Origin: Vulcanimicrobiota bacterium
GTDB taxonomy: Bacteria > Vulcanimicrobiota > Vulcanimicrobiia > Vulcanimicrobiales > Vulcanimicrobiaceae
Reading direction: 5' to 3'
NCBI GenBank assembly: GCA_027459645.1
Contig: DAIDHQ010000032.1
Location: 1 to 64,000 of the forward strand
DNA: 64,000 bases
How positions within the stretch are numbered: position 1 is the first letter of the stretch; each line of letters begins with the position of its first letter. Shown piece after piece: positions 2,928 to 11,828 of the stretch. Position numbers and translations under genes: made by a program. The notes under the pieces were generated by a model. It did not search any database. It saw nothing but the letters and a program-made list of their open reading frames with translations, and was not told the DNA's origin.

Positions 2928-3745
2928 TTGCTGCATCGGTTCTCGAAGGCATCTGGTCGGCTACGGTAACGCCGCTCGACGAAACGTTCACGCCCGACGT
3001 CGGACGCGCCGCCGAGTTCTACCTAGAATTGCTGCACGGCGGTTGTCACGGGCTCAACGTACTGGGCACCACCGGCGAAGCGATGTCGCTCGGCGTCTCG
3101 CAGCGGATCGCCTTCATGGAAGGGCTTTTCGCACACGGCATTCCGCGCGCGCGCACGATGTTCGGTACGGGTGCGTGCGCACTGGCAGATGCAATTGCGC
3201 TCACGAAAGCCGCGCGCGAACTCGGAGCGGCGGCCGCACTCATCATGCCGCCGTTCTTTTACCGCGATGCAGACGACGACGGCATGCTACGCTGGTTCGA
3301 CGAATTGATCTCGCGCGCGCAGCCGCCGCCGATCCTGCTCTACAACTTCCCGCGCATGAGCGGCATCACGTTTCACGCAGCGCTCGTCGACAAGTTGATC
3401 GCCGCGTTTCCCGGCGCAATCGCGGGAATGAAAGATAGCTCGAACGACGTACCGTTGCAGCGTGAACTCCTCGCTCGGCATCCGTCGCTTCGCATCTTCA
3501 CCGGATCGGAAGAGTACTTGAGCGACGTGCTCGAACTTGGCGGCGCGGGCTGCATTTCGGGAAGCGTCTGCCTATGGCCTCAAGATGCGGCGCACGTGTT
3601 TCGCACGCGCGATGCGCACGCGCAAGAGCGCATCACGCAACGGCGGCGCGCCTTGGCAGGCGCGCCGCTCATCGCTACCGTTCGCGAACACCTCGCAGCC
3701 GCGCGCAACGACGACGCATGGCTGCGCGCGATGCCGCCGCTATAA
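2924..3745 (+). CDS. DapA/NAL-family aldolase (not a typical DapA)
   Basis: 273 residues, a class I aldolase of the dihydrodipicolinate synthase / N-acetylneuraminate lyase superfamily. Visible are GTTGE (48-52), the catalytic Tyr in LLYNFP (Y140) and the Schiff-base Lys in GMKDSS (K170). True DapA has an Arg two residues after the YNxP motif (YNVPxRT) that binds the carboxylate. Here the sequence is YNFPRMSG with the Arg one place early, so the substrate is probably another 2-oxo acid. Coupling to proline dehydrogenase (GTGA overlap at 2924, AAAGGAG at 2904-2910) hints at hydroxyproline or keto-acid catabolism; that is inference. It ends 6 nt inside the convergent OPT gene. Confidence 0.85.
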   Translation: MIAASVLEGIWSATVTPLDETFTPDVGRAAEFYLELLHGGCHGLNVLGTTGEAMSLGVSQRIAFMEGLFAHGIPRARTMFGTGACALADAIALTKAARELGAAAALIMPPFFYRDADDDGMLRWFDELISRAQPPPILLYNFPRMSGITFHAALVDKLIAAFPGAIAGMKDSSNDVPLQRELLARHPSLRIFTGSEEYLSDVLELGGAGCISGSVCLWPQDAAHVFRTRDAHAQERITQRRRALAGAPLIATVREHLAAARNDDAWLRAMPPL

Positions 3746-5713
3746 GGCGCGGGCCTTCCCGCCGATCCACCGGTACAGCAGGTACGGTACGCCCACGAAC
3801 GCGACGATCGCCAGAATGTTCGGAACCATGCCGCTTCCGTCACCGAAGAACGCGAACGGCGCGCCGGGATCGACCGCGGGAATCATCTTGTTTTGTGCGA
3901 GCACGATAATGCCGGCGTAGAGAACACCCCAGAGGCTTTCGCCGACGATCATGCCCGATGCAATGAGAACGCCCAAGCGCCGCGCGGATTCGGCGTTGGG
4001 TTTCGATGCGACCCAGCGGTTATAGAGCGCGCCGAAGATTGCGCCGACGACGGCCGGTGCCGTTGCGCTGGTGGGAAGGTAGATGCCTAGGCCTACGGCG
4101 AGCGGCGGAAATTGGAAGCGCTTCGTCGCGCGTCCGATTTCGTCGATGATGATGACGACGACGCCGATCAACGCGCCCAGACCAATCAGATTCCAATCGA
4201 TGCTGCCGCCGATCACGCCCTTTGCGAGCGTCGAGATCAGCGTCGCTTGCGGCGCCGGCAATCCCGTCCCGCCGAACCCGTACGCTTTGTTCAGCACGTC
4301 GAGCACCGGCGGAATGACGATCGAACCAAACAGCACGCCGATCACGAGCGCGACCTGCTGGCGCCATGGCGTCGCGCCGACCAACTGGCCGGTCTTGAGA
4401 TCTTGCAAGTTATCGTTCGAGATCGTCGCTACGTTCAAGAGCAGCGCGGTGACAAAGAGCGCATAGGCGATCAGCGCGTTCGACGCGGCCGGCACGGCGG
4501 TCTTGGCCACGATCAGCAGCAAGATGGAAGCACCGATTACCGTCAAGATCGCCATGCCGGATACGGGCGAATTCGAGGCGCCGATCAGTCCCGCCATATA
4601 GCCCGTTGCCGCAGCGATAAAGAACCCGACGATGACGATGTACACCATCGCTGCGATCAAGAGCGGAACGATCATTCCCGAAAGTACCGTGCCCGAAAGA
4701 AACGACCAGAGCACGATCGCAAGCGGCACCAAACAGATCAGCGAGATGATCAGCACGACGTTGAACGGCAGATCTTGCTCGGTGATATCGACCTCGGCGC
4801 CTTGCGCGCGTAGGCGCGACGAACGAAGCGACGATGCGATCCCGTTCCAGACCGGCATCGCTAAGCGCAACAGCGTCCAAATGCCCGCGATGCCGATCGT
4901 GCCGGCGCCGATGAAGCGCACGTAATGCGCCCACGCGTAGGTCGCTTGTCCTTCAAAGGTGCCGGGCGTCGGATGTATCGCGGTGAGAATCGGCACCAGA
5001 ACGGCCCAGGCAATCAGCAGGCCGCCGAAGATCGCAAAGCCGACGGTCAAGCCGATCAGGTGACCGACGCCGACGAGCGCGAGCGAGGTCGAGAAGCCCA
5101 TTCCGGTCGCGGAGGCGCCGAATTTCAAGTAGCCTTTGAATTCCGATGCAAACGCGCCGATCGCGGTGCCGACTTGCACGAGCGCCGATGCGATGGAACT
5201 CACGAGTAGCGCAAGCAATCCGAGTTTGTTTTCCTCGACCGCTTCGCCCGCGCGTTCTCCCGCGCCGACCTGCAAAACTTCCGCCGCCGCAACGCCTTCG
5301 GGATACGGCAAATCGGAATTCGTGACGAGCGCGCGGCGTAGCGGCACGCTGTACATCACGCCGAGCGTTCCGCCGACCGCGCAGATTGCGAAACTCTGCC
5401 AGAAGGGAAAATGCGTCCACCAACTGATCATCACGAGGCCCGGCAACACGAAGATTACCGCGGAGAGCGTACCGGCAGCCGATGCAACGGTCTGCACGAT
5501 GTTGTTCTCCCAAATCGTCGCGTTGCGGAACGCACGAAGAACCGCCATTGAAATAACGGCGGCTGGAATCGACGTTGCGAACGTGAGGCCGACCTTCAGG
5601 CCCAGGTAGACATTAGCGGCGGTAAAGACGAGGGTGATGAGTCCGCCGAGGACGATGCCGCGAACGGTGAGTTCGAGGGCACCGGGTTGTCGTTTGGCTA
5701 GGTTGGTTTGCAC
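3740..5713 (-). CDS. OPT family oligopeptide/metal transporter
   Basis: 657 residues with about 14-16 hydrophobic helices. The OPT hallmark SDLPYPEG (about 133-140) and a helix-rich N-terminus (AANVYLGLKVGLTF) place it in the bacterial OPT family, which moves small peptides or metal chelates across the inner membrane by proton coupling. I chose GTG 5713 because residues upstream of it are Arg-rich and unlike the family; the ATG at 5839 would lie inside the upstream gene. The start overlaps the 3' end of the small PAS-like gene by 16 nt, so the two form one operon. It converges with the aldolase gene with a 6-nt overlap. Confidence 0.9.
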   Translation of the reverse strand: MQTNLAKRQPGALELTVRGIVLGGLITLVFTAANVYLGLKVGLTFATSIPAAVISMAVLRAFRNATIWENNIVQTVASAAGTLSAVIFVLPGLVMISWWTHFPFWQSFAICAVGGTLGVMYSVPLRRALVTNSDLPYPEGVAAAEVLQVGAGERAGEAVEENKLGLLALLVSSIASALVQVGTAIGAFASEFKGYLKFGASATGMGFSTSLALVGVGHLIGLTVGFAIFGGLLIAWAVLVPILTAIHPTPGTFEGQATYAWAHYVRFIGAGTIGIAGIWTLLRLAMPVWNGIASSLRSSRLRAQGAEVDITEQDLPFNVVLIISLICLVPLAIVLWSFLSGTVLSGMIVPLLIAAMVYIVIVGFFIAAATGYMAGLIGASNSPVSGMAILTVIGASILLLIVAKTAVPAASNALIAYALFVTALLLNVATISNDNLQDLKTGQLVGATPWRQQVALVIGVLFGSIVIPPVLDVLNKAYGFGGTGLPAPQATLISTLAKGVIGGSIDWNLIGLGALIGVVVIIIDEIGRATKRFQFPPLAVGLGIYLPTSATAPAVVGAIFGALYNRWVASKPNAESARRLGVLIASGMIVGESLWGVLYAGIIVLAQNKMIPAVDPGAPFAFFGDGSGMVPNILAIVAFVGVPYLLYRWIGGKARAL

Positions 5714-6054
5714 CCGCCGTCGATTCGTTGCACGAACACCGCTATCCGCCGGCCTTCGTAGCCGTGGAGCGGGGCAACGGTGACGTGGAGATTCGAGATC
5801 GCGGCGGTGGCTGGCGCAGCGGTTCGAGGTGTCCGCCAAGCGGCGGTCAGGGCGCGAACGACCCGATCGATGGGGCTGGGCAGGACGTCGATTTCGCCGT
5901 CCGCCACATAGAGCCCGGCAAGGGGGTCTTCGGTACTGGACGGGCCGGCCATGATCACGTGATAGGCGTCGTCCAGAATGAAGCAGTAGGGGACGGCCCC
6001 CGTAAAGCGCTCGGGACGGTCGGCAACTTCCTGGTCGATCGCTAGGGCGTACAT
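5698..6054 (-). CDS. small PAS-like protein of unknown function
   Basis: 118 residues, soluble. PYCFILDDAYHVIMAGP near the N-terminus and LHVTVAPLHGYEGRRIAVFVQRI at the C-terminus (seen in parts) read like the outer strands of a PAS fold with a short insert between; I cannot assign a ligand. I chose ATG 6054 and not ATG 6069 because GGAGGATC (Shine-Dalgarno) ends 7 nt upstream of 6054. It is transcribed divergently from the LuxR-type regulator and overlaps the OPT gene start, so it may sense something for that transporter or regulator. That role is inference. Confidence 0.6.
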   Translation of the reverse strand: MYALAIDQEVADRPERFTGAVPYCFILDDAYHVIMAGPSSTEDPLAGLYVADGEIDVLPSPIDRVVRALTAAWRTPRTAAPATAAISNLHVTVAPLHGYEGRRIAVFVQRIDGGCKPT

Positions 6055-6142
6055 GGCATGATCCTCCATGCCCCTATCCTACGCATCCACGCCCCTCGCC
6101 AAATCCGGGGAAACCCCTGATTTTCGCGGAACGAGGGAGCGC

Positions 6143-8728
6143 GTGGGTACCTTATTTGGGCGAACGGGCGAGCTCGAATTCTTGGCAAAGGTCCTGCGGT
6201 CGTCCCAGCACGGCAGGCTCGTGCGGGGGGTCCGGATCGTGGGCAGCAGCGGGGTCGGAAAGACCGCGCTCGTCAGTGAGAGCGCGGCTCGGGCGTCCGT
6301 GGACGGCTGGCTCGTTGGGAACGTCGGCGCCTTCCGCATTCACGCCTCGTTGCAACTCTTCACGGCGCGACGGCTCGTGCGCGCGATCGTCGACGGGTTG
6401 GGCGAGAAGGCCGAACGCTACGTTTCCGGACTCGACCTCGAGACGGAAGTGCCCGAAAGATTTGAAGAGTCGTTCTTTCGGTTCGTCGAAGGCGTCACGC
6501 TCGACCGGATGCTGCTGCTCGTCATCGACGACGCGCAGTGGTCCGATGCCGCGAGCCGCGCGCTCATCGTCCGCGTCGTGTCGGAGTTTGCGGACCGGCC
6601 CATCGTCGTACTTTCGACGGAGCGGACGGACGAAACGCTCGCGATGCCGCTTCTGAGCGACGAAGCGATCGCGCTTTCCGAGCTCTCGGATGAATCGGTC
6701 GCGGAGATCTCGCGCGACCGGTATCCCGATGCCAATCCGGATGTCATCGCCGCGATCGTCGATGCGTCCCGCGGCCGCGCCGTGGACGCGGTCGCGCTCG
6801 CGGACTCCGCCCACGTGTCGCGCGCGACGAATGCCGCCGACGTTGCCGCCGGCACCAGACGCGTCATCGCGCGCGACCTCGCATTGCTCGATCCCGCCAC
6901 GCGGACGTTTCTCCAAACCTGCGCGTTGATCGACGAGCCGATCGACGTCGCCCTGCTGCGAGAAATGTGGCCGGCACCGGAACTCTTCGAATTGATCGAT
7001 CGCGTCTCGGGGCGCTACTTGGTCGAAGACGAAGCCGGAATCCGCTTCGTGCACGCTGCGGTCATGCAAAGCGTGCAAGAGACGATCGCCATCGAAATCC
7101 CGTTGCGACAGCGCGTCATCGCGGCGCTGCAGCGCCTGCCGTCACCGCGACTCGAAGATTTGGAGCGTATCGCCGAACAAGCCAAGGCGTGCTCGGACCG
7201 TAAACTCGAGCGAGAAACGCGGCTGCGGCTGGCCGATGCCGCAGCGAAAACATCGCTCTACACTCTCGCCTCGGAGGCGACCGAACGCGCTTTGACGTTG
7301 GCGCCCGTATCTCCGGAAGAGATCGTTCCGCTCTATACGCGTCTCTCGCAAATGTACAACGCTATTGGCCGCGTGTCCGACACGATTCGCGTCTGTCGCG
7401 CCGGCCTGCGCGCGGCCCGTGAAGCCGGCATGAACGAAGGCCTCGGCGGACTCGCCGCCTCCCTCGTCATCGCCCATTGGCACGCAGGCGACGCCGATAT
7501 CGCATGGGCCGAGCACCGAAGATATAGCGGCGTTCTGACGTCGCCCGCCGATCAAGCGCTGCTCTTTACGACGGGCGAGTACCTGGCGATGGACCGCGCG
7601 GACGAGACCGAAGCGCAACGATACGCGCAGCGATTCGAGGCCGTCCGCGATCACGCGCATCCAAGCGTCGTATTGCGCCACCACACCGCGCAGGCGTTCC
7701 TATGGCAACGTCTGGGCAACGAAGCGAAGGCGCTCGATCACACGGAAGCCTCCGAGCGCGTGGCGGAAGCACTACCGCCGGTATTTTCGACGATGCCTCG
7801 TGCCTTACGGCTGCTGCATGCGCTGAGGTTCAGAGGCGTCGTTGCAACGGAACGACTCTTGGACGATACCAACAACGAATTGAGCGACGGCTTGATCGGC
7901 ACCCTTCGGCCGCAGCTTTTTCTGGTTAGCGGCCGGTTCGAGGATGCGCTCGAGTTCAGCATAGAGACGCTCGCGCGATACAACGATACGATGTCGCGAA
8001 GGATCCTGCTCTCGTGCGCGGCGACGGCAGCCGCGTTCTTCGACGGGGAATCACCGTCGGTCGTCACGGATTTGATCGCCAAGGAGGTCGAGCGTTTCGA
8101 ATCCGGAGATCGATCGCCGGCGCTGCTGCCGCTCTTGAGCGCCGTCGCCCTGCAACGAAGCAGCAAGCCGACGCCGCCGACGCACGCCATGCTCGAGGAG
8201 CTGGTTACGATGCATGGGACGGCGTGGGACAACAGCATCTACGTCTACCCCGTCGTCCTCGCCCTTGCGGCCCGGACGCTTCGAGCGGCCGACGTATTGA
8301 AGCGCCTCGCGCGCGAAGGCACCCTATGGACCGATGCGCAGCCGTGGAATCAGGGGCACGCGCTGCTCGCGCGCGCGGTCGCGGCAAAGGCGGTCGGCGC
8401 TTCCGATGCGCACAAGCTCTTCTCGGACGCTCGCGAACGGCTCTACGCACTCGGGCATCAATACTTCGTTCGGTTCATCGACTCGGAGTTGAGCGCGCAA
8501 CAAAAGACGGCGCCTGCCGAAGGGACGCTCGGAAAGACGACGCGGCGCGAACGCGAGATCGCCGCGCTCGTGGCCGACGGCTTGTCAAACCGCCAGATCG
8601 CCGAAAAGCTCGTGTTGAGCGAGCGCACCGTCGAGGGCCACATCGCGAACCTTTTTGCTAAGGTCAACGTCAGTTCGCGAACGCAGCTCGCGTCGTGGTA
8701 TTTGAAATCTACAAATTCTGTTGCATGA
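6143..8728 (+). CDS. large ATP-binding LuxR-type transcriptional regulator
   Basis: 861 residues, an LAL-type (MalT-like) regulator. It has an N-terminal AAA/NACHT-like ATPase with Walker A GSSGVGKTA (about 34-42) and Walker B LLLVIDDAQW (about 126-135), a long helical repeat middle region (TPR-like), and a C-terminal LuxR helix-turn-helix: TTRREREIAALVADGLSNRQ, then SERTVEGHIANLFAKV (about 795-850). I prefer GTG 6143, with GAGGGAG at 6133-6139, because the ATG at 6068 would leave 13 bp to the divergent gene and has no ribosome-binding site. The target is unknown; the divergent PAS-like/OPT operon or the convergent RiPP locus are candidates. Its end overlaps the candidate precursor gene by 20 nt. 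Confidence 0.88.
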   Translation: MGTLFGRTGELEFLAKVLRSSQHGRLVRGVRIVGSSGVGKTALVSESAARASVDGWLVGNVGAFRIHASLQLFTARRLVRAIVDGLGEKAERYVSGLDLETEVPERFEESFFRFVEGVTLDRMLLLVIDDAQWSDAASRALIVRVVSEFADRPIVVLSTERTDETLAMPLLSDEAIALSELSDESVAEISRDRYPDANPDVIAAIVDASRGRAVDAVALADSAHVSRATNAADVAAGTRRVIARDLALLDPATRTFLQTCALIDEPIDVALLREMWPAPELFELIDRVSGRYLVEDEAGIRFVHAAVMQSVQETIAIEIPLRQRVIAALQRLPSPRLEDLERIAEQAKACSDRKLERETRLRLADAAAKTSLYTLASEATERALTLAPVSPEEIVPLYTRLSQMYNAIGRVSDTIRVCRAGLRAAREAGMNEGLGGLAASLVIAHWHAGDADIAWAEHRRYSGVLTSPADQALLFTTGEYLAMDRADETEAQRYAQRFEAVRDHAHPSVVLRHHTAQAFLWQRLGNEAKALDHTEASERVAEALPPVFSTMPRALRLLHALRFRGVVATERLLDDTNNELSDGLIGTLRPQLFLVSGRFEDALEFSIETLARYNDTMSRRILLSCAATAAAFFDGESPSVVTDLIAKEVERFESGDRSPALLPLLSAVALQRSSKPTPPTHAMLEELVTMHGTAWDNSIYVYPVVLALAARTLRAADVLKRLAREGTLWTDAQPWNQGHALLARAVAAKAVGASDAHKLFSDARERLYALGHQYFVRFIDSELSAQQKTAPAEGTLGKTTRREREIAALVADGLSNRQIAEKLVLSERTVEGHIANLFAKVNVSSRTQLASWYLKSTNSVA

Positions 8729-8999
8729 GGAAGACGAGCCCGACGTGCCGCGGAGCGTTTGGGTTGCTCTGCTGGAAACTCGCGACTTGGGATTGTAAGT
8801 GCGAATCGATGTAGGACGCCATTGCATGCAAGTCGTCGTGATCCGGCGCTTGGGCTAAGCCCAGCGTTCGCTGCACGAGCGCCCCAATCGCCTTGTCGTC
8901 GTCCTTTTTGATCGCCATCCACTCGTTGTACAGTTCCGGCGAATTCTGCAGAGCGTGGAGAAATGCGACGGCGGTCGAGCGATGTTGAAGATCGTTCAT
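8709..8999 (-). CDS. candidate RiPP precursor peptide (Nif11-like leader)
   Basis: 96 residues. Residues about 9-68 read like a Nif11/NHLP-type helical leader: AVAFLHALQNSPELYNEW, then DDDKAIGALVQRTLGL and HAMASYIDSHL. A short tail follows (QSNPNAPRHVGLVFLMQQNL, last 20 residues) that could be the core. It is the third gene of a minus-strand operon after a TfuA-YcaO fusion and a methyltransferase, the usual neighbours of a modified peptide. The core has no Cys and few Ser/Thr, so backbone thioamidation would fit better than azole formation. The leader similarity is my reading, not a search result; a non-precursor helper protein is the main alternative. GGAG at 9013-9016 lies inside a hairpin 13 nt upstream. 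Confidence 0.5.
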   Translation of the reverse strand: MNDLQHRSTAVAFLHALQNSPELYNEWMAIKKDDDKAIGALVQRTLGLAQAPDHDDLHAMASYIDSHLQSQVASFQQSNPNAPRHVGLVFLMQQNL

Positions 9000-9008
9000 A
9001 CTAACAAT

Positions 9009-9042
9009 TAGGCTCCTAAGCGGCTTCCGGCTGCGGAGCCTA
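9009..9042 (-). promoter_or_regulatory. hairpin covering the ribosome-binding site of the candidate precursor
   Basis: TAGGCTCC (9009-9016) pairs with GGAGCCTA (9035-9042). Read on the minus strand, the second arm contains GGAG, the best Shine-Dalgarno for the gene starting at 8999. The hairpin begins immediately after the methyltransferase stop (9043-9045). It could act as a partial terminator or translational switch between enzymes and precursor. Confidence 0.5.
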
Positions 9043-9885
9043 TTAGCTCCTGGGCGCTTGCTTCCTAGCGACGATCTGTTTTAATGGGAGCAAAGTCCCA
9101 TCATCGCGACGATTCGCAAGAGCTAGTACTCCGGGTAACTCCTCGAGCAATCCGAACGGATAAGATCGTCGAATCACTTCGCTCAGCATGCCCCGCTGGT
9201 CCGTTCGAACATCGAAGTCCCGCACGGTTTCGAGATGCAAGCCTTCAGAAGCGTACATTTCGCGCAAGCCTTCGTCCGACGCGGCGCGCGGATCGGTCGT
9301 AACCATCAAGCCGAATGCCGGATGCCGCACGCGCAGCGAAGCGAGCGCTTCCGCCATCGTCTCGGTGAACGATGATGACTTGCGCATGTGAGGCATGACC
9401 GCCACGAACGCTCCCCCGGGCACGAGCAATTGCGAGACCATCTCGAGCATCCGCTGCGGATCGAACACGCCGGGAAACACCAGATGCGATGCGATCGCAT
9501 CAAATCGCATCTGACCAAAACTTTCCGGCGTAAAGGAGGCGCATCGAATATACGCGCTCGGTACCCGATCGCGAGCGCGCGCGACATCGCAAGCGACGAC
9601 GTCGATGCCGTATAGCGAAAGATCGGGACGCCGATGCGCGACCTCTCGGAGCAAGAGCGCGTCACCACAGCCGACTTCCAGCACGCGAGCGCCCTGCGGT
9701 AGAAGTGCCGCGAGCGTTGCCGCCGCGACGTCGTACGAATTTTCTCCCTCCGCCGTTCTCAACCGCGCGACGACGGAACTGGTCGCTCCCGGATACCGTT
9801 CGTGAAAGCTCTCGAGAAACTCAAACCACTCCGCTTCGTCGGGACGGCGGCCCGTGAATAAAAAGTGATCGGAAGGTAGCGTCAC
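9043..9885 (-). CDS. SAM-dependent methyltransferase (RiPP operon)
   Basis: 280 residues, class I Rossmann methyltransferase. The SAM-binding glycine motif VLEVGCGDALLL is at residues 68-79, followed by an acidic loop at strand 2 (LYGIDVV) and FDAIASHLVFPGV as motif II. The start ATG overlaps the stop of the TfuA-YcaO gene by 4 nt (9882-9885), so the two are translationally coupled. A methyltransferase beside YcaO/TfuA commonly methylates the modified peptide. Substrate and position cannot be told from the sequence. Confidence 0.85.
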   Translation of the reverse strand: MTLPSDHFLFTGRRPDEAEWFEFLESFHERYPGATSSVVARLRTAEGENSYDVAAATLAALLPQGARVLEVGCGDALLLREVAHRRPDLSLYGIDVVACDVARARDRVPSAYIRCASFTPESFGQMRFDAIASHLVFPGVFDPQRMLEMVSQLLVPGGAFVAVMPHMRKSSSFTETMAEALASLRVRHPAFGLMVTTDPRAASDEGLREMYASEGLHLETVRDFDVRTDQRGMLSEVIRRSYPFGLLEELPGVLALANRRDDGTLLPLKQIVARKQAPRS

Positions 9886-11828
9886 GAGGCCGCCCGTGCA
9901 AACGGATTGAGCAGCGCGCGCGCTTTCGCACCAAAGTGTCCGCTGAAAACGAGCGTTTCGAGTTGCGGAACGATCGCGCGAACGACCGCAACGGGCAGAT
10001 CGGAAGGCGAGATATCGACGGCGATCGCCGAATCGACGCCGTCGCGTCGCAGCGCGTCCAGCGTTCGCGTGACGTCGACCGCCAAATCGTTCGTGGAGCG
10101 ATCCTCGAAGGAGTCAAACGTGACGCGCGTAGCGGGAAGGTCGTAATACCATTGCTCGCTCGGAATAGCGCGCAAACGCCGCGCGTGATCGCCCATGACG
10201 CCCGCGGTTTCGTCAACGCGCAAAATATCCTCGCGCGCGGCTTGGATATCCACCGCGCGGCTCTGCACTGCTTCGGTCAATGCGCGGACGATCGCATGAG
10301 CCGGCGAAAGCGAACAGCCCAAACCCATGTGAGCCATCGGCAATGACGCATCGGTTTCGGTGATCGCCGCAGTCGCGGTAAACGGAAGATGGCCTTCGGG
10401 AAGCGCGAGAACGCGAACGTGCAAGCCCGCTGCGCGTATCCGCTCGACCAGATCGTCAACGACGGAATCGCCCGATGGTAAGACGATCTCGGGCGCAAGC
10501 ACGACGTCGCGCGCTTGCGGACCGCCGAAGAATCGTGGCGCTACCGAACAGCGTACGTGATAGAGCGACCACACGTGCCGTTCAACGAGTTCGCAGAGCG
10601 CGTGATAGATCGCCTCGGTAAGATTATTGCCAGACGCAAGCCCGTTGGTCGTCGTCTGATCGAACAGTTTTTCACCGAACCACGGGCATTGCACCATGGC
10701 GAGCGGCACCGGGATAGCGTCGCCTCGAAGCAGGTCGGTTCCGAGCACGCAATCGACGACGAGGTCGCGTGCTTGCGCGCGCAGATTCAACGCTTCGAGA
10801 TCGATGCGTTCGCCCACCACGCGCAACGATTCTTGAAAGGTGCGCAGGCCGATCGCCGCGCCCACCTGCCGCTCCGTGGCCTCCATCACCGCACTTGCCG
10901 TCGCCGCTTCCGGCGTCAAGCCTTTGCCGTTATAGACGCCGAGCAGATCGGGCGATTGAGGCACGAACGCCGAAAACGTAGGAATGCCGATGCGATCCAG
11001 GCGCGTCGTATCCGCGACGCGCGTGATGCCGTAGCGATCGCGCAATGCCGGCAGTACTTCGAGCGTCTGCGCAAAGCGCACCGCGCGATCGTACGTGTTC
11101 GGCACCTTCGGAACGGCCTGCGGAAGCACGATCGGGGATGTGTCGCGCGGGCTCGGTGACACAGGGTTTCGCGGCGCGCTCTGTCGCGGTAGCGGTCGCG
11201 CGTTACCACGCGACATCGATCTGATCGCGGTTCGCAGAGCGAAGCGCGCATCGAGCCGTTTGAGATCGCCTTCCTCGCCGGCAATTGACGCGACCGCGAG
11301 TCGCGCATCCTCGGGTAGGCGTGCTAACACGTCGTCCCACGTGCGATCCATATAGAAGATCGCTCGCGCGGATTCGACGAGGGCGATAGCTTGTGCGGCG
11401 GTGAGAATGCCGCGCCGGCGTGCGAGCCGGGCGACGTGGCGCACGTTGACGAGCGGAACGCTCAGCGCTTCGTGCGTCAGCGGGTTTGTCGACACCGCAA
11501 CTTCGTCGTCGCCGTCGATCGCACCGCAAGCATACCAGCGCGCGATCGCACCGAGGGGCGTAAAGCCGTACGGCGCACATTCCGCCGAGCGCAGTGCGCC
11601 CATGCTCGCAGCGCCGAACATACGAGCGTGTTCGAGCGCGGCGTAACATTCTTTCGGCGACGGCGCGAGATCGTGATGGAAGACGCCGTCGATCAGCACC
11701 ACGGCATCGTAGGTTTGCGCCGCGGCAAGCACGTCATGACGCGCGGCGGGCGGAAGATAGACGATATCTTCGCCGTCAATACGGTCGGCGAATGGGAGAG
11801 ACGGCCCCGCAAAAACGGCGATCGGCAT
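9882..11828 (-). CDS. TfuA-YcaO fusion protein (RiPP thioamide/azoline synthetase)
   Basis: 648 residues. Residues 1-205 are a TfuA domain (LIDGVFHH at 45-52, SMGALRSAEC at 75-84). A Pro-rich linker (205-245) leads to a complete YcaO domain: DTTRLDRIGIP (273-283), ATP-site glutamates in VMEATER (314-320) and LTEAIYHALCELVERH (403-418), and the arginine/glutamine helix GLGCSLSPAHAIVRALTEAV (502-521). YcaO enzymes activate peptide amides with ATP; with TfuA they are known to make thioamides. The C-terminus lacks the PxPxP end of azoline-forming YcaOs, which agrees with thioamidation. TfuA and YcaO are usually separate genes. A 12-bp hairpin ends 2 nt before the ATG. Confidence 0.92.
   Translation of the reverse strand: MPIAVFAGPSLPFADRIDGEDIVYLPPAARHDVLAAAQTYDAVVLIDGVFHHDLAPSPKECYAALEHARMFGAASMGALRSAECAPYGFTPLGAIARWYACGAIDGDDEVAVSTNPLTHEALSVPLVNVRHVARLARRRGILTAAQAIALVESARAIFYMDRTWDDVLARLPEDARLAVASIAGEEGDLKRLDARFALRTAIRSMSRGNARPLPRQSAPRNPVSPSPRDTSPIVLPQAVPKVPNTYDRAVRFAQTLEVLPALRDRYGITRVADTTRLDRIGIPTFSAFVPQSPDLLGVYNGKGLTPEAATASAVMEATERQVGAAIGLRTFQESLRVVGERIDLEALNLRAQARDLVVDCVLGTDLLRGDAIPVPLAMVQCPWFGEKLFDQTTTNGLASGNNLTEAIYHALCELVERHVWSLYHVRCSVAPRFFGGPQARDVVLAPEIVLPSGDSVVDDLVERIRAAGLHVRVLALPEGHLPFTATAAITETDASLPMAHMGLGCSLSPAHAIVRALTEAVQSRAVDIQAAREDILRVDETAGVMGDHARRLRAIPSEQWYYDLPATRVTFDSFEDRSTNDLAVDVTRTLDALRRDGVDSAIAVDISPSDLPVAVVRAIVPQLETLVFSGHFGAKARALLNPFARAAS

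Follow-up and report, generated by a model that had tools for sequence, protein, structure and literature searches.

Organization of the locus

The window (the whole 64,000-nucleotide stretch of DNA that was analysed) carries three genes on the (-) strand, which encode a TfuA-YcaO fusion protein, a methyltransferase and a small protein of 96 residues, and a regulator gene on the (+) strand that converges on the last of them. The genes and other features are as follows:

6068..8728, (+): LAL-type regulator of 886 aa (AAA_16/STAND ATPase plus C-terminal LuxR HTH, by Pfam); convergent with the precursor gene, the 3' ends overlapping by 20 nt
8709..8999, (-): predicted RiPP precursor of 96 aa, with a helical leader (residues 1-78) and a disordered C-terminal core (~81-96, NAPRHVGLVFLMQQNL); assigned from co-occurrence, pN/pS, AlphaFold and multi-core homologues
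8709..8759, (-): predicted core-encoding segment, codons 81-96 plus the stop, with Gly87 as predicted thioamide site; corresponds to the motif repeated in L062:7073-7564
9003..9041, (-): RNA stem-loop between the methyltransferase and precursor genes (MFE -21.1 kcal/mol, z -2.8)
9043..9885, (-): class I SAM methyltransferase of 280 aa with a GTG start (matches to Methyltransf_11/12/25/31); candidate accessory tailoring enzyme
9882..11828, (-): TfuA-YcaO fusion of 648 aa, a predicted peptide backbone thioamidase (from Pfam/NCBIfam, PDB relatives, fused orthologues and split genes elsewhere)

The fusion and methyltransferase genes overlap by 4 nt, as the initial annotation of this DNA had it, and the small gene begins 43 nt past the methyltransferase stop. 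No consensus promoters or terminators above chance were found within the operon. The same annotation had reported no transporter or protease gene, which holds inside the operon but not beyond the regulator, where a gene for an OPT-family oligopeptide transporter lies at 3740-5839, (-). Of the 22 neighbourhoods that were clustered, 7 contain this gene; its product could carry the peptide or a metal complex, or its presence may be plain synteny.

Divergent from the regulator is a gene for a 123-aa PAS-like protein (5698-6069, (-)), a homologue of which matches PAS_4 at E 0.011. It lies near the cluster in many loci and has a second copy in the source genome (C33), and it was rejected as a required partner because genomes that lack the cluster (G002, G009, G027 and G017) have it too. 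Peroxiredoxin and thioredoxin genes upstream were likewise set aside as partners, being conserved neighbours, yet generic and missing from some loci.

The fused enzyme

The union of a TfuA and a YcaO domain in a single protein, proposed when the sequence was first read, is borne out by one continuous ORF in which TfuA occupies residues ~3-199, a Pro-rich linker ~205-245 and YcaO ~248-640. The Pfam TfuA model matches residues 47-163 (E 1e-29, 103 bits, cut-off 30) and the Pfam YcaO model residues 300-624 (E 4e-54, 185 bits, cut-off 25.7). Two NCBIfam models span the domains more fully: NF033432 (TfuA) covers residues 3-199 with a score of 146.3, under its equivalog cut-off of 235.2, and TIGR03266, the model for the McrA-glycine YcaO, covers residues 248-626 with 206.9, under its cut-off of 365, so that the fusion does not reach equivalog status for McrA-glycine thioamidation with either model. 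The nearest solved relatives are 6xp8, a TfuA-domain protein (E 4e-26), and 6pe3, the YcaO protein MJ1094 (E 3e-29). Alignment with MJ1094 reveals long YcaO blocks common to both proteins, for example TNGLASGNNL and the region around GxGCxLxPxxAIxRALTExxQSR. The C-terminus reads ...LLNPFARAAS and, in agreement with the first reading, has no PxPxP. An AlphaFold model of the whole fusion was discarded since the underlying alignment was too shallow (pLDDT 49.6).

The fusion is no accident of assembly, since eight fused orthologues align with it at 63-67% identity. The two domains are fused in the genus of the window, in G031/G069 and in the genus of G025, and are encoded by separate genes in the other genera inspected. 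The fusion contains the only YcaO found in the source genome. The encoding of TfuA and YcaO together at this locus is a hallmark of TfuA-YcaO thioamidated RiPP clusters.

Co-occurrence in the phylum

A profile of the small gene was searched over 149 genomes of Candidatus Eremiobacterota, 27 of which match it, as compared with 29 that match TfuA and 46 that match YcaO. The small gene is present in 24 of the 29 genomes with TfuA versus 3 of the 120 without it (Fisher p ~1e-19, with relatedness ignored), and a looser search detected a divergent small gene in two further TfuA genomes (G014 and G029). Two of the three small-gene genomes without a TfuA match are fragmentary, their contigs ending inside YcaO (L126 and L128), and the third, G071, has a weak match (E 0.006). 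In G123, G132 and G064, no family precursor was found beside TfuA; the TfuA ORFs there are longer and the loci different. The locus of G132 encodes a 172-aa protein (L132:10496-11014, (+)) that resembles leader peptides of the nitrile-hydratase type, ~4 kb from the long TfuA and the YcaO, and the gene next to it specifies what looks, by eye only, like a cobalamin-binding radical SAM enzyme.

The initial annotation had made its reading depend on the presence of the small gene beside orthologous fusions. Homologues in fact adjoin every related TfuA-YcaO locus inspected, fused or split, and lie within or next to the block of TfuA, YcaO and regulator genes. With homologues beside YcaO and TfuA across the phylum, the 96-aa gene is no chance ORF. 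The named records that contain homologues are metagenome-assembled genomes of Candidatus Eremiobacterota, besides records titled 'bacterium'. The identity between YcaO sequences tracks that between leaders (Mantel r 0.86) and between cores (r 0.76), in comparisons from which shared ancestry was not removed.

At three loci (G014, L068:8070-12830; G036, L065:2470-12336; G029, L071:5632-11399), a YcaO gene is accompanied by a regulator gene and a small gene of divergent sequence, with TfuA on another contig or ~5 kb away. The tails of their small proteins read, for example, NFIIVTTA or NLVVVSTT, and these genes may form a sister family whose core is different and lacks the conserved Gly described below.

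Predicted leader and core of the small protein

The 96-residue protein had been described as a helical, leader-like part followed by a short tail, and the AlphaFold model agrees, with a confidently predicted helical leader and a disordered tail (pLDDT 83.8 overall, below 50 for residues 88-96). A structural search of the PDB with this model gave no match at E<1. Equal conservation over the whole length, as in an ordinary protein, would speak against a precursor, and is not what was found. Among eight orthologues from one genus, leader codons 1-60 have a pN of 0.033 and a pN/pS of 0.087, codons 61-80 a pN of 0.20, and core codons 81-93 a pN of 0.240 and a pN/pS of 0.34, so that the pN of the tail is about seven times that of codons 1-60 within this genus. 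The overlap with the regulator gene does not explain the contrast, since in that genus it takes up just 14-17 nt at the very end of the precursor gene. Judged by its sequences, the family thus behaves like a RiPP precursor: a conserved leader and a variable core, encoded next to the modifying enzyme and kept across homologous loci.

The description of the leader as Nif11-like fared less well. The resemblance is weak (Pfam Nif11, E 0.0089, 16.7 bits versus a cut-off of 23.8), and we have rejected membership in PF07862 since the score falls below the curated threshold. The Nif11 profile matches only 2 of 31 family members at E<1, the precursor matches none of the NCBIfam leader models, and no Pfam or NCBIfam model reaches its cut-off on the family. 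A GG-type cleavage motif is absent before the core in the window, where residues 76-84 read QQSNPNAPR, and the family shares none at this place, with G031 as the only member to have one (PGGPHH).

A near-invariant Gly at position 87 is present in 19 sequences of an aligned 23-member set (YcaO identity >45%), in which Pro at position 83 and His or Thr at 85 are also frequent. This Gly is not universal, its position being taken by V, C or other residues in G080/G082, G037, G036, G014 and G029. No Cys, Ser or Thr is conserved in the core of the family.

The strongest evidence for the division into leader and core comes from a relative, G034, in which a single leader is followed by the tail motif DAPSHVGxxFVVQ in five tandem copies of 14 aa (L062:7073-7564). 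The five repeats, GSAGHVGMAFVVQS, DAPSHVGEGFVVQH, DAPSHVGSGFVVQG, DAPSHVGSGFVVQN and DAPSHVGMAFVVQK, use different synonymous codons, which argues for selection on the peptide and against a recent stutter of the DNA. Comparison with these repeats gives NAPRHVGLVFLMQQNL as the core in the window, and the multi-core relatives together would narrow the originally proposed candidate core, itself correctly placed, to about NAPRHVGLVFLMQQ. In another relative, G089, one leader bears two cores (L123, ~3140-3518) and there is also a second precursor gene; in G007, three precursor genes stand in tandem. Natural single-, double- and five-core candidate substrates exist within one precursor family.

The G034 locus (L062:6390-11355) contains one TfuA gene, two YcaO genes and two precursor genes, one of them that with five cores. 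Its second YcaO is orthologous to that of G104/G105, and apparently two thioamidation lines are served by one TfuA.

Accessory features

Methylation of the product had been guessed from the methyltransferase gene. The gene is present in the window and homologues occupy the same place in ~10 loci, but no match was found in four others (G007, G028, G010 and G104), from which we take the enzyme to be an optional accessory and methylation to lie outside the predicted core chemistry.

Hairpins at the position of the stem-loop also occur in G001 (z -3.3) and G089 (z -6.5), and none was seen at this spot in G031, G069 or G025. That of G089, which is very stable, lies between the methyltransferase gene and the second precursor gene (L123:4570-4705, (+)). 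Such a stem-loop might possibly set precursor expression or mRNA stability, a weak suggestion.

A predicted pathway to a thioamidated peptide

Taken together, these observations lead us to propose, with a probability of about 0.82, that the locus is a small gene cluster of Candidatus Eremiobacterota for RiPP biosynthesis, in which the 96-residue precursor is thioamidated by TfuA-YcaO and its core released. The helical leader of the precursor would extend over residues ~1-78, and the C-terminal core would lie near NAPRHVGLVFLMQQ. Recognition of the leader would fall to the fusion itself, since the genes scanned include no separate RRE or ThiF-like partner. The replacement of a backbone oxygen by sulfur through YcaO and TfuA is established chemistry (PMC5589413, PMC6511847), and we infer a thioamide in the product here: the YcaO domain would use ATP to activate an amide oxygen of the core backbone, to be replaced by a sulfide equivalent that the tethered TfuA helps to handle. 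Since the YcaO and TfuA parts are closest to the archaeal proteins for McrA-glycine thioamidation, the best prediction is a backbone thioamide of the thioglycine type. Conservation suggests the Gly of the VG motif, which is near-invariant, as the most likely site; this is the least certain step, because V, C or other residues stand at that position in the more distant subfamilies, and the thioamide site may thus differ among them or not depend on Gly. The methyltransferase, where present, would add a methyl group, and a protease encoded elsewhere would then release the core. Gene order suggests that the convergent STAND/LuxR regulator controls expression.

The role of the product is a separate matter. 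Homologues of the STAND/AAA ATPase-HTH regulator converge on the precursor gene in all 20 loci measured and overlap the core-encoding end by 4-23 nt in 17 of them, and in G080/G082 an HTH_31-AAA-TPR regulator takes the same place. The regulator is thus the most constant extra partner of the cluster, more constant than the methyltransferase, and its convergence and overlap suggest a functional coupling with the precursor. Sensing of the peptide by the regulator is possible. A rather unlikely extension is that the peptide is a signal sensed by this regulator, so that the locus would constitute a self-contained communication circuit and no antibiotic cluster; a shade less likely again is the specific version in which the ligand of the regulator in such a circuit is a thioglycine peptide made by the single TfuA-YcaO fusion. 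Cluster-situated LAL regulators also govern many ordinary metabolite clusters, which weakens the case. Being about the function of the product, the proposal does not conflict with a thioamidated RiPP.

The fate of the small protein might also be different. The operon has no protease or peptidase-exporter gene and its YcaO is closest to a protein-modifying enzyme, as would be expected if the small protein were an intact cellular constituent, thioamidated in place on its tail like McrA or ribosomal uL16 and having no leader to be cleaved. We consider this quite improbable, because a tail that is hypervariable within a genus and multiplied five-fold in one relative, together with tandem gene copies, is more in keeping with a released product than with a fixed function of a protein. 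It is very improbable that the fusion produces azol(in)es or some other YcaO-type compound, such as an amidine: the YcaO superfamily carries out all three chemistries and the SagD model TIGR03604 matches at 101 bits (under its cut-off of 219), but TfuA is fused to this YcaO, neither the ThiF/RRE partner of a TOMM cyclodehydratase nor a dehydrogenase was found among the genes scanned, and a core without conserved Cys, Ser or Thr, as opposed to one rich in them, makes azoline formation unlikely.

Relation to known systems

A close parallel to a released, thioamidated peptide is provided by the thiovarsolins of Streptomyces varsoviensis (varA/varY/varT), for which a precursor, YcaO and TfuA suffice and the precursor has five repeats (PMC6511847). 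The Eremiobacterota loci share with them this minimal set, the existence of multi-core precursors with five repeats next to single-core relatives, and an AP-x sequence at the start of the core (APR in the thiovarsolins, APRHVG in the window). The thiovarsolin genes differ in being separate and actinobacterial and in including an extra heme oxygenase, and the thioamide is at the Pro-Arg amide, as opposed to the conserved Gly that is the candidate target here. Only varAYTO is needed for the thiovarsolins, and the core is released without a clustered protease (PMC6511847), a precedent that makes release by a protease encoded elsewhere plausible in our case.

The YcaO-TfuA system for thioamidation of the McrA glycine (MJ1094, 6pe3; TIGR03266, NF033432; PMC5589413) supplies the closest curated families and the closest solved YcaO structure, and has in common with the window a Gly as the conserved candidate target. 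It differs in that it modifies a large enzyme subunit and is encoded by separate genes, and the window scores under its equivalog cut-offs.

Clusters of TfuA with Nif11-type leaders (from Desulforegula, Anabaena and others) and a fused tfuA-ycaO in Burkholderia thailandensis are already reported in the part of PMC8120280 drawn on here; that part does not report a fusion together with a Nif11-like precursor and does not mention Eremiobacterota, and its precursors have the GG cleavage motif that the window's family as a whole lacks. Phospeptin and pythonamide are RiPPs of Ca. Eudoremicrobiaceae, a marine lineage of the same phylum, and represent other chemistry, with no YcaO or TfuA in PMC9259500. 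In the literature searched, we found no paper naming both Eremiobacterota and YcaO, nor any thioamidated RiPP characterised from this phylum, which is largely uncultivated.

On the sequence evidence, the locus very probably belongs to an established class, the TfuA-YcaO thioamidated RiPPs. Nif11-type precursors in TfuA-YcaO systems, the tfuA-ycaO fusion and the multi-core precursor are each known separately (PMC8120280, PMC6511847); what is new is the family itself, in which a precursor family, a fusion, an optional methyltransferase and a constant convergent regulator are brought together in a phylum for which the literature searched yielded no cluster of this kind. A thioamidation enzyme in one polypeptide, with a defined precursor, would be a compact system in which to ask how TfuA and YcaO choose a residue, and the conserved Gly would link a bacterial natural-product enzyme to the archaeal thioglycine-maker for methyl-coenzyme M reductase.
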